From NCBI RefSeq assembly GCF_000336555.1, contig NZ_KB375281.1:2429954-2493953 (forward strand): a stretch of DNA of 64,000 bases. The letters are read 5' to 3'. The notes beneath the pieces are model-generated. The model made no database searches. It saw nothing but the letters and a program-made list of their open reading frames with translations, and was not told the origin of the DNA. Shown in pieces: positions 33,088 through 57,611 of this stretch. The DNA is from Afipia clevelandensis ATCC 49720. Lineage in GTDB: Bacteria > Pseudomonadota > Alphaproteobacteria > Rhizobiales > Xanthobacteraceae. The translations under genes and the position numbers were made by a program. The first letter of the stretch is position 1, and every line of letters starts with the position of its first letter.

Positions 33088-33220
33088 CCCCTCTCCCCTT
33101 GTGGGAGAGGGTGGCGAGCATCGTCAGATGCGAGCCGGGTGAGGGGTCTTTATCAATCGCGAGTTTACCCCTCACCCGCCTTCGCTTCGCTCAGGCACCC
33201 TCTCCCACAAGGGGAGAGGG
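33088..33220. repeat. Palindromic repeat, family A copy 3
   Basis: Same outer 24-base arms as copy 1 (CCCTCTCCCCTTGTGGGAGA... and complement) with inner GGGTGAGGGGT/ACCCCTCACCC. It lies between the tadG stop (8 bases away) and the hisS start, and so may terminate tadG transcription ahead of hisS. Confidence 0.85.
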
Positions 33221-33227
33221 TGAGTTG

Positions 33228-35036
33228 CTAATTCACCAGCACCGCGCCGTCGCAGCGGATGCCGGTGACCCAGACATCCGCCTGCCCGAGGCCGACGCCC
33301 AGCGTCTGCAGCACCGAATTAAGCAGCGTGTCGATGGAGCCGGTGGCCCCGCCGATGATGCCGGCGACCAGCGCGCCGATACCGGGGATCGGCAGGCCGA
33401 GCGGCCCGAGTTGCACGCCAAGCTGAAGATCGCCCAGCAGGCTGGTCGTCAGCGACGATGTGAACGAGGTGGTGTTCACCGTCTTCTTGGTCTGTCCCTG
33501 AATGTCTCCATAACTGAACGTGACATTGGTCGGCGAGGCATTCGCCATGGTGGCGTGGGCACGGCCCGTCACCTGGATCGCGCCGAGATTAACGATGTTC
33601 ACCGCCGGCGGATTCGGCTTCGTCGAGAAATTCGTCATCATCGCGGACGTCACGTCGCCGATCCACGCATCGACAATGCCGGGCGACACGCCGAGCGTCG
33701 CCGTGGATGTGCTCATGTTCGGATAGCCGCATGACACCGCATTGAGCGTCGCGGTGCCCGCCGCGATCTCGACATAGACCGGCAGGTTGACCACCGACAC
33801 CGAGCCCGAACCGACCAACTGAATCTTCAGCAGCACGCGGGTCTGCGCGGTGTGAACGCTCGCCCCGGCCGAACCGACCGTGACCCAGCTTGTCCCCACC
33901 GGACGCTCGCCGACGGTCGCCTGCAGCGTCACACCGGCAATGCCAGGCAGCGACAAATTCACATTCGCCGCGATCTGGTTGGTGCCGTTGGCGAGCGCTG
34001 CCATGGCCGAAACGAGATCCAGCGCCGACACGGTCGCGCCGACCTTCGGCTTTTCGCCGACCGTGAGATTTGAATACGGCCCGACGCCGATCAGCGCCGA
34101 CGGCGTGATCTTCGTGGTCATGCCGGAGATCGCCGACGAGAGGCTGGACAGCGCGGCAATCGCGCCGCTGTTGCCCATCGCCGCGGTCTGCAGCGCCGCG
34201 ACGATATCGGTCACCTTCAGGTTGCTGCTGAGTAACGTGTCATAGGTCACGCCGGTGAGGTTGACGCGCGTCGCCAGCGCCGAGAGGAAATCGAAGGCGT
34301 CGATTTTCGCCGCCAGCAGCGCGTTGTAGTCCATTGCGGAGAGCGACAGCGTGGTGCCGAGCATGCCGCCGAGCAGCGCATTCAGCAGCCCTCCGTTGAG
34401 CGACACCAGCCGCGAGCCGATCGCGAAGGTGGCAAGCTGCGTGGTGCTGGCAATGGCGCTCGCCTTGACATCCCACTGGCTCTCGCCGGTCAGCACCTTG
34501 CCGAAGTAGAGCGGTGTCTTTGTCTTCAGCGACACCCGCACCGCATTGGGGGGCGTTGCCCCCGCCACGAACCGCTGCTGCGGCGTCAGAGACGCTTTCG
34601 CCGTGTAAACACCAGGCTCGACAGCCACGAGCGAGTCCGGTGGATAGTTATTCCTGGCGACAGTCGCCGCAGCAGCGCGGGACGCATTGTTCAAATCGCT
34701 TGCGGCGACAATCGCCGCAAGATCGGCCGCGCTCTGGGTGCGGCGCTTGTCAGCGAAGATCGAACCCACATCGACGCCGAGCGCGGCGCAGGCAATGACC
34801 ATCAAAAAACTCACCGCGCCCATGATCGCGATGTTGCCGCGCTCGTCGCTGATGAAGCGGCGGAGAAGATTACGGCCTGCACCGCAATTGGACCGGCTCC
34901 CTCTCCCCGAGGGGGAGAGGGTCGGGGTGAGGGGGTTCGAGGTTTCCATACAGACACCGAGCCCCCTCACCCGCTCACTTCGCTCGCGACCTCTCCCCGC
35001 CGGGGAGAGGTGAGACACAACACCCACATTTCGCAT
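33228..35036 (-). CDS. TadG-like protein with in-frame palindromic repeat near its start
   Basis: 602 aa from ATG 35036, which has GGAGGG 8 bases upstream within the end of tadE. Residues about 8-48 (for example HLSPAGRGRERSERVRGLGV and NPLTPTLSPSGRGSR) are the translation of a family A repeat. A TadG N-terminus follows: LLRRFISDERGNIAIMGAVS and one transmembrane helix, then VDVGSIFADKRRTQSAADLA, the classic TadE/G pseudopilin-like motif. The remaining about 500 residues are a low-charge, Ala/Ser/Thr/Val-rich extracytoplasmic domain. An internal start at 34949, inside the repeat, is the alternative. Role: Flp pilus or envelope; no other tad genes here. Confidence 0.78.
   Translation of the reverse strand: MRNVGVVSHLSPAGRGRERSERVRGLGVCMETSNPLTPTLSPSGRGSRSNCGAGRNLLRRFISDERGNIAIMGAVSFLMVIACAALGVDVGSIFADKRRTQSAADLAAIVAASDLNNASRAAAATVARNNYPPDSLVAVEPGVYTAKASLTPQQRFVAGATPPNAVRVSLKTKTPLYFGKVLTGESQWDVKASAIASTTQLATFAIGSRLVSLNGGLLNALLGGMLGTTLSLSAMDYNALLAAKIDAFDFLSALATRVNLTGVTYDTLLSSNLKVTDIVAALQTAAMGNSGAIAALSSLSSAISGMTTKITPSALIGVGPYSNLTVGEKPKVGATVSALDLVSAMAALANGTNQIAANVNLSLPGIAGVTLQATVGERPVGTSWVTVGSAGASVHTAQTRVLLKIQLVGSGSVSVVNLPVYVEIAAGTATLNAVSCGYPNMSTSTATLGVSPGIVDAWIGDVTSAMMTNFSTKPNPPAVNIVNLGAIQVTGRAHATMANASPTNVTFSYGDIQGQTKKTVNTTSFTSSLTTSLLGDLQLGVQLGPLGLPIPGIGALVAGIIGGATGSIDTLLNSVLQTLGVGLGQADVWVTGIRCDGAVLVN
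34899..35011. repeat. Palindromic repeat, family A copy 4, inside the tadG coding region
   Basis: Arms CCCTCTCCCCGAGGGGGAGAGGG and CCTCTCCCCGCCGGGGAGAGG with inner GGGTGAGGGGG/CCCCCTCACCC. Unlike the other copies it lies downstream of a good start codon and ribosome site, without any in-frame stop, so it is translated as about 38 residues if the 35036 start is used. Confidence 0.8.
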
Positions 35037-35038
35037 TT

Positions 35039-35548
35039 TCAATACCCTCCGCGCGGGATCGCAGCCGTTCGCACGATGGTCGATGACGGCGCGGGCACGA
35101 ATGTCGGCAGCGAATAGATGAACATGCCGGAGGCATCGTAATTGACGGACACAATGAAGACGTTGGCGTCGGACCCCGAGGTGGCCGCGTTGACGGTGAG
35201 CCTGGCCGGGTCAATCAGCGGATAGGAATTGACATTGCCGGTGATGTAGCTGTTCGCGAGCGAACTGCGCTCGCTTTCGCTTAGGCCCGCAACGGAGGAG
35301 CGCGCCGCTTCCGCCGCCAGTTGCTGCACGCCGTGAACCACGGACAGGTACGAGCCGTACATCACGATCCCGAACACCATCATCAGGAACACCGGCGCGA
35401 TCATCGCGAATTCGACCGCAATCGCGCCGTCGCACGCGGCAGAAAATCTGCCGGCCCGGGACCGTGCCAGAGCCGCTTTCGCGCAAACCCGTTTCCGGAA
35501 AGCCGTTTTCCCGAAGGCTATTTTCCCGAAGGCTGTTTTCTTCGACAT
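35039..35548 (-). CDS. TadE-like pilus assembly protein
   Basis: Protein of 169 aa from ATG 35548. After a basic N-terminal segment containing a 5-residue repeat (KTAFGKIAFGKTAFRK) comes the TadE motif CDGAIAVEFAMIAPVFLMMV with one transmembrane helix and the conserved E near its start, then an extracytoplasmic part ending FVPAPSSTIVRTAAIPRGGY. TadE/TadF are minor pseudopilins of Flp pilus systems. The stop nearly touches the tadG start, suggesting coupling. No tadA/B/C, cpaB or flp gene is in the window. Confidence 0.82.
   Translation of the reverse strand: MSKKTAFGKIAFGKTAFRKRVCAKAALARSRAGRFSAACDGAIAVEFAMIAPVFLMMVFGIVMYGSYLSVVHGVQQLAAEAARSSVAGLSESERSSLANSYITGNVNSYPLIDPARLTVNAATSGSDANVFIVSVNYDASGMFIYSLPTFVPAPSSTIVRTAAIPRGGY
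35490..35546. repeat. 15-bp tandem repeat at the tadE 5' end
   Basis: The unit TTTTCCCGAAGGCT(A/G) occurs at 35505-35519 and 35520-35534, with a partial third copy up to about 35541 and a degenerate one at 35491-35504. Being a multiple of three it adds or removes five residues without a frameshift. Confidence 0.7.
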
Positions 35549-35759
35549 GGCGCTCACCCGTTGTGACGCGGGCATTTACGCATACAACTTTTAAGGGCAA
35601 ACTAATTCGCAAAACAACTATTGGATGTATTATGATCCGCCTGCGCACCGTGAATTCACTTACCGGCGACCATGCGTCGCTGTGCGTTCCGGGCCGCGCC
35701 GGAAGCTGATAAGGTCCTCTTCCAAGAAAGAAACTGCTCCTTGCCGGAAGGAACGTCCC

Positions 35760-39686: not shown

Positions 39687-39766
39687 CGTCATTGCGAGCG
39701 AAGCGAAGCAATCTACTCTTTAAAGAAAACATGGATTGCTTCGTCGCTGCGCTCCTCGCAATGACG
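39687..39766. repeat. Palindromic repeat, family D copy 1
   Basis: Starts CGTCATTGCGAGCGAAGCGA and ends with CTCCTCGCAATGACG; the inner AAGCAATC pairs with GATTGCTT. It lies between convergent HAD and cheY-like genes. A near-identical copy is at 57501-57580. Confidence 0.85.
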
Positions 39767-39770
39767 ACGA

Positions 39771-57500: not shown

Positions 57501-57580
57501 CGTCATTGCGAGCGCAGCGAAGCAATCCACTCTAAGAGCCAAAAGATGGATTGCTTCGTCGCTACGCTCCTCGCAATGAC
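57501..57580. repeat. Palindromic repeat, family D copy 2, between gltB and gltD
   Basis: Starts CGTCATTGCGAGCGCAGCGA, ends CTCCTCGCAATGAC; AAGCAATCCA pairs with TGGATTGCTT. Almost identical to copy 1 at 39687. It sits 12 bases after gltB and 31 before gltD, inside the operon. Confidence 0.85.
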
Positions 57581-57611
57581 ACCGAAACTTTGAAGGGGCG
57601 TCGGGTCTAAA

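Follow-up and report, generated by a model that had tools for sequence, protein, structure and literature searches.

A dispersed palindromic repeat probably read as coding sequence at the tadG start of Afipia clevelandensis, at a junction apparently reached by several repeat families

In Afipia clevelandensis ATCC 49720, the genes for the pilus proteins TadE and TadG follow each other on the minus strand of a 64,000-nucleotide stretch of contig NZ_KB375281.1 (the window, in whose coordinates all positions are given). The features at this junction are as follows:

35039..35575, minus strand: tadE (PF07811, 1.2e-11), beginning at ATG 35575 or ATG 35548
35045..35050, minus strand: GGAGGG ribosome-binding site within the 3' end of tadE, 8 nt from ATG 35036
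35041-35039, minus strand: tadE stop codon TGA, read from the sequence
33228..35036, minus strand: tadG, a TadG-like minor pilin with Pfam Tad and Tad_C domains, 602 aa if ATG 35036 is the start
35034..35036, minus strand: ATG, probable inherited tadG start, within a base of the start in the two nearest repeat-free relatives
34896..35013, minus strand: family A composite palindromic repeat, about residues 9-47, bounded by BLAST copies and alignment
34947..34949, minus strand: internal ATG inside the repeat, a rival start 31 codons ahead of the conserved Phe
34854..34856, minus strand: Phe codon of RRF..DERGN, the first invariant TadG column (F61 is invariant in 29 sequences)

The tadE gene ends in GGAGGGTATTGA, and ATG 35036 lies two bases further on. 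From this ATG no stop codon occurs until the tadG stop at 33228, the repeat and the TadG body forming one open frame. The product matches PF13400 (Tad, 7.6e-10, residues 67-114) and PF09977 (Tad_C, 1.8e-11); with its PF13400 domain, its tadE neighbor, and a pilin-like N-terminal helix followed by a beta-containing domain, it has the attributes of a TadG-like minor pilin. The window tadG carries 60 codons ahead of the conserved Phe, compared with 12 and 10 in its two nearest relatives (L032 and L033). A sequence-only reading of this DNA had proposed that a palindromic repeat at 34899-35036 is read through in frame and adds about 38 residues to TadG. The frame is indeed open from ATG 35036 into the conserved body, so that read-through would follow from translation, and the estimated contribution agrees with the approximately 39 codons (residues 9-47 of 602) found here. 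The span given covers the ATG plus the repeat, the repeat proper being confined to 34896-35013. The pilin leader encoded by tadE is expanded as well, its N-terminus (window 35480-35540, minus strand) containing an imperfect, short tandem repeat (KTAFGKIAFGKTAFRKR).

The element inside the 5' end of tadG, named family A, is a palindromic repeat of 118 bp dispersed through the 4.40-Mb one-contig genome, where it has at least 52 BLAST matches (E <= 0.01, counting partial and overlapping ones, with 40 scored out of 59 first-look candidates). The long matches span window positions 34896 to 35013, and the tadG copy and 16 others align as a single composite element with unrelated flanks, made up of the self-complementary parts CACCTCTCCCC..GGGGAGAGGTCG, CGGGTGAGGGG..CCCCTCACCC, and CCCTCTCCCC..GGGGAGAGGGAG. 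Two attributes of protein-coding palindromic repeats are therefore found: family A is palindromic, dispersed, and multi-copy, and its tadG copy is an in-frame, stop-free insertion in a gene with repeat-free orthologs. In the 17-copy alignment the consensus starts near CACCTCTCCCC and finishes GGGGAGAGGGAG, with neither a CGTC tag nor a GTAG end. The Y1 transposase domain PF01797 has no match in the window genome (G000), G013, G020, or G005, and one match in G019. Mobilization of family A by a RAYT was dropped as an explanation, since PF01797 is absent from the window genome and the GTAG end is absent from the repeat. Assignment to a known Rfam family was likewise abandoned, as the 17 matches at E <= 1, none near a gathering score, were taken as generic hairpins. 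Family-A-like pieces also occur just behind the tadG stop (window 33088-33220; G001:C1:609347, G013:C1:2330261, and G020:C1:950163), as if both gene ends were favored. Elsewhere in the window, a pair of CGTCATTGCGAGCG... palindromes (39687-39770 and 57501-57585) looks to be of the CGTC-tagged type.

Whether the repeat is translated depends on which tadG start is used. The relatives nearest on the TadG tree, G001 (93% identity) and G027 (92%), lack the repeat and have an ATG one base past the tadE stop, preceded by the same GGAGGG. Because start position and GGAGGG are shared, ATG 35036 is very probably the inherited tadG start, behind which the repeat would have entered. The Shine-Dalgarno (SD) duplex has an energy of -10.0 kcal/mol in the window and in the repeat-free loci L032 and L033 alike. 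The view that the best ribosome site and ATG lie upstream of the repeat, put forward from the sequence alone, thus gains the agreement of relatives, and the comparison with repeat-free tadG 5' ends suggested along with it places the start of the nearest two within a base of 35036. The 17 Afipia junctions without a repeat fall into two groups: in 10, an ATG at -1 to +2 relative to the tadE stop is in frame, and in the other 7 the first suitable start comes only at +11 to +26, near the body, so the tadG start has moved within the genus. In the window tadG, no start codon lies that close to the body. Its in-frame starts after 35036 and ahead of the body are GTG 35027, GTG 35018, GTG 34970, and ATG 34949, and its sequence contains no in-frame ATG, GTG, or TTG between the repeat and Phe61.

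It could be argued that TadG begins at the internal ATG 34949, in which case coding would be confined to the second half of the repeat, with the first half serving as a structured 5' leader. Ahead of this ATG lies an SD-like GAGGGGG whose duplex energy, -10.6 kcal/mol, is slightly stronger than that at 35036, and a start here would still yield a 31-codon tail with repeat sequence; L041, a related locus with another element, likewise has an internal ATG (+100, -5.6 kcal/mol). However, the 12-nt spacing at 34949 is poor and its SD-like stretch is paired in the repeat hairpin, while the inherited ATG 35036 shares its frame and has a well-spaced SD. In addition, no internal ATG is in frame ahead of the body at four other loci with insertions (L037, L053, L038, and L039). 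Internal starts would also leave the upstream part of each insertion no reason to be open, yet it is open in the TadG frame at all six Afipia loci. Initiation at 34949 is thus regarded as unlikely. When the RNA is folded in isolation, ATG 35036 and its SD both fall in paired stretches, which ribosomes coming from tadE would presumably open. Whichever of 35036 and 34949 is used, the sequence implies that some of the repeat would be translated.

The spacing between tadE stop and Phe codon was measured in 88 of 93 loci, the 93 being the sum of successive searches (26 + 4 + 6 + 57). It is 11-77 nt in 81 of the 88 junctions and 158-221 nt in the remaining 7, and the long junctions belong to 6 of 23 Afipia loci vs 1 of 65 others. 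The Afipia sample derives from 29 genomes searched, of which 24 had tadG and 23 a readable junction. The 88 junctions include at least two duplicates with identical proteins (L068/L081 and L073/L080), and near-identical copies of counted loci (L057-L065, L067, L069, L070, and L072) were kept outside the count, as were L075 and L074, the latter without an insertion. Of the five unreadable junctions (L040, L076, L084, L103, and L136), all but L040 were inspected singly: L103 has a normal start and lacks tadE, L136 has no TadG match, and L076 and L084 are described below.

The long junctions hold different elements, in families named by eye, the six Afipia insertions belonging to two of them. Family A occupies the window locus (L031), L037 (G013), and L053 (G020). 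An insertion of the CGTCATCCTGAGG family is found in L038 (G017) and L039 (G019), and L041 (G005) has a CCTCATCCTGAGG element similar to it. L079 (G068), from a different genus, has a GACCCCGAAAAGTGGG palindrome followed by a CGTCATCC family repeat. The family B copies in L038, L039, and L079 start with CGTC. On the TadG tree, repeat-free rows adjoin each of the family A loci: L032 and L033 next to L031, L036 next to L037, and L048, L050, and L051 next to L053. On a quick tree built from 33 TadG proteins with their tails removed, parsimony requires six junction changes, five in Afipia and one in another genus. Thus, the same leader region would have been struck at least six times on this tree by different repeat families. 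Judged from these junctions, the tadG start in Afipia is an unusually tolerant landing site, at which related species seem to have independently taken up other elements. L051 (G021) was excluded from the protein alignment for an in-frame TGA; this single TGA lies within the TadG match near the 3' end of the gene, and the match stops short at query residue 541 of 548.

At each of the seven long junctions, just one of the three frames is free of stops between tadE stop and Phe codon, and it is that of TadG. At the six Afipia insertion loci, an ATG in this frame lies between -1 and +4 relative to the tadE stop and is preceded by an SD within the end of tadE. The ATG adjoining the tadE stop of L079 is not in the TadG frame, which leaves initiation to an ATG further on, at +61. 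The two palindromes of L079 stand in tandem, the first (GACCCCGAAAAGTGGGACCGG) ahead of the usable start and the second read in frame. Copies of both families were counted in the genomes, and in full-length copies elsewhere 35% of frames are stop-free for family A (17 of 29 other loci usable) and 28% for the CGTCATCC family (21 of 28 loci usable). A single open repeat was therefore dropped as evidence, as about 28-35% of repeat frames are open by chance. Since one open copy is unremarkable, the case rests on the separate insertion events. The chance that the TadG frame is the sole open one in six events is about (1/3)^6 = 0.0014, a rough figure that assumes independent events.

These figures bear on the proposal that the repeat is extragenic, its open frame being accidental and TadG starting behind it or at a non-standard codon. 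An account of repetitive extragenic palindromes (REPs) allows that most N-terminal REPs may be extragenic and appear coding through misannotation (PMC3733652), and the chance openness of about 35% of repeat frames is in keeping with this. One locus with a start behind the repeat exists, and a second is probable. In G110 (L084, positions 1-90, at a contig end), a family-A-like repeat directly before tadG contains an in-frame TAG, so tadG translation there must begin at the ATG behind the repeat; either this is the true start or the assembly is in error. At the second locus, L014 (G000, about 3.692 Mb), a methionine-synthase-like ORF is open through a family A copy and its likely start lies behind the repeat, making it a likely source of N-terminal misannotation. 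If the G110 exception is counted, 6 of 7 events are in frame, with a rough chance of about 0.007 under the same assumption of independence. Against an extragenic repeat stand the lack, noted above, of any in-frame ATG, GTG, or TTG between the repeat and the conserved Phe, and the TadG frame being the sole open one in all six fully readable insertion events. The extragenic reading is accordingly held to be most improbable for the window tadG. At the other unreadable junction, in G209 (L076), the contig ends 17 nt ahead of the TadG body in GAGGGAGC, followed by ATG; GAGGGAGC may be the end of a family A copy that would supply the ribosome site of that ATG. As a check for in-frame capture in general, ORFs were listed across 29 other family A loci (of the at least 52 matches), and 10 long ORFs from 8 loci were scanned against Pfam. 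No second coding family A copy was shown among them, as the only scanned ORF with a Pfam match was the methionine-synthase-like one of L014; unscanned ORFs may hide one.

The sequence of the tails indicates how they have evolved. L038 and L039 share one inherited insertion that differs by 15 substitutions and 0 indels in 156 nt. Between them the tail has dN 0.105 and dS 0.097, vs dN 0.022 and dS 0.256 for the TadG body, though the tail ratio is based on just 15 substitutions and the total tail divergence is below the dS of the body. As a neutral control, intergenic repeats orthologous between G017 and G019 were sought; the 13 loci compared included no clean orthologous pair, and the tadG neighborhood was used instead. 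Five indels occur within 185 nt behind tadG in the same pair, a stretch, forming the 3' part of this neighborhood, that is too diverged for a clean rate. From these comparisons, selection appears to keep the frame of the tail and not its peptide, and neutrality of the tail is suggested. It has also to be considered whether the tail or its RNA hairpin has been recruited to a role such as slowing the synthesis of TadG or binding a partner. The recurrent hits at one site and the strong RNA fold (z -4.1) would suit such a role. However, tails of different families show no common peptide by eye, dN is about equal to dS in the only shared tail, and 17 of 23 Afipia loci do without an insertion. Recruitment is thus considered highly unlikely, and the tail is most likely without a function of its own.

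Structure prediction places the tail ahead of the helix, as the sequence-only reading had anticipated. In an AlphaFold model built with 29 sequences (mean pLDDT 75.1, pTM 0.60), residues 1-52 fall below 50 pLDDT and a long helix starts at residue 65. The repeat-encoded tail is thus predicted to be disordered, though its low pLDDT would be expected anyway from the few tailed rows in the alignment. In published descriptions, TadG-type minor pilins carry a leader ahead of a predicted prepilin-peptidase site (PMC12075869, PMC12607857). In the 29 TadG sequences Gly67-Asn68 is invariant, but in the translation position +5 is Met rather than the Glu of the canonical G/X4/E site, so trimming of the leader is only a possibility. 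The window genome has one match to the prepilin peptidase domain PF01478, more than one megabase away.

Taken together, it is likely that the repeat was inserted behind the tadG start and is translated from ATG 35036 into TadG as a tolerated, frame-kept, disordered leader. In this process a mobile palindromic repeat would land between the tadG start codon and the codons of the conserved membrane helix, leaving the start codon and the ribosome site at the end of tadE upstream of it. Ribosomes would then initiate at ATG 35036 and pass through about 39 codons of the repeat into TadG without a change of frame. The outcome would be a disordered cytoplasmic leader of about 60 residues, rich in Arg, Gly, Ser, and Pro, ahead of the pilin-like helix. 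The TadG leader may tolerate such changes in length and sequence through being trimmed by prepilin peptidase, or through merely hanging in the cytoplasm. Frame-breaking insertions would abolish TadG and be lost, while in-frame ones would lengthen a tolerant leader. In genomes studied previously, REPs occur close behind the stop codons of upstream genes (PMC3733652). Since the next start lies only a base or two past the tadE stop, an element landing slightly further downstream falls into tadG, and since the leader is tolerant, in-frame insertions would survive and the region would be hit repeatedly by different families. A bolder proposal, which seems unlikely at present, is that the TadG leader is a landing pad that captures palindromes as coding sequence, with tails that alter TadG amount or processing and so tune the pilus tip between species.

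Afipia is not known to be obligately intracellular. In-frame palindromes are established inside genes in Rickettsia and Wolbachia (PMC4224334, PMC5656822, PMC3733652). The likeness to Rickettsia palindromic elements (RPEs) drawn in the sequence-only reading holds for behavior, as a dispersed palindrome lies in frame within a real gene, apparently without inactivating it. It does not extend to the ends of the element, where family A lacks the CGTC tag by alignment. Family A also differs in that the N-terminus of one gene is hit repeatedly by different families, and in that no other copy examined in the window genome was shown to be coding.

Closer to Afipia, REPs of the GTAG and CGTC types both occur in Bradyrhizobium and Rhodopseudomonas palustris, and REPs inside genes are reported for several bacteria (PMC3733652). 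Family A resembles these superfamilies as a short palindrome near gene ends, some of whose members are intragenic, and the CGTCATCC... family starts with CGTC as the CGTC superfamily does. Unlike them, family A is a 118-bp composite with neither end tag, and recurrent capture by one leader does not figure in the parts of that account drawn on here (PMC3733652). Br-REP1 and Br-REP2 of the related genus Bradyrhizobium are also palindromic repeats, Br-REP1 of B. japonicum having three stem-loops; they differ from family A in sequence and are placed in 3' UTRs and intergenic regions, with no in-frame reading in the portion of the report used (PMC5082802). Given the lack of a GTAG or CGTC tag and of a Y1 transposase in the genome, family A is not classed as an RPE or a RAYT-type REP. 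On the evidence of its tadG copy, it is best described as working like a protein-coding palindrome. Among the literature matches listed, none is an earlier report of TadG repeats or of palindromes read in frame in this group, and those listed for a search on sequence words looked unrelated by title.

In-frame palindromes themselves were already known, and what is new here is the repeated hits by different repeat families on one leader. Published work cautions that palindromes at gene starts may be misannotated rather than translated (PMC3733652). The tadG junction turns this into a testable question, as it combines several independent insertions with relatives that lack a repeat and with one counterexample. 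The junction shows how a selfish repeat can turn into protein sequence at little cost, and it means that the predicted TadG N-termini in Afipia are not all mutually homologous.
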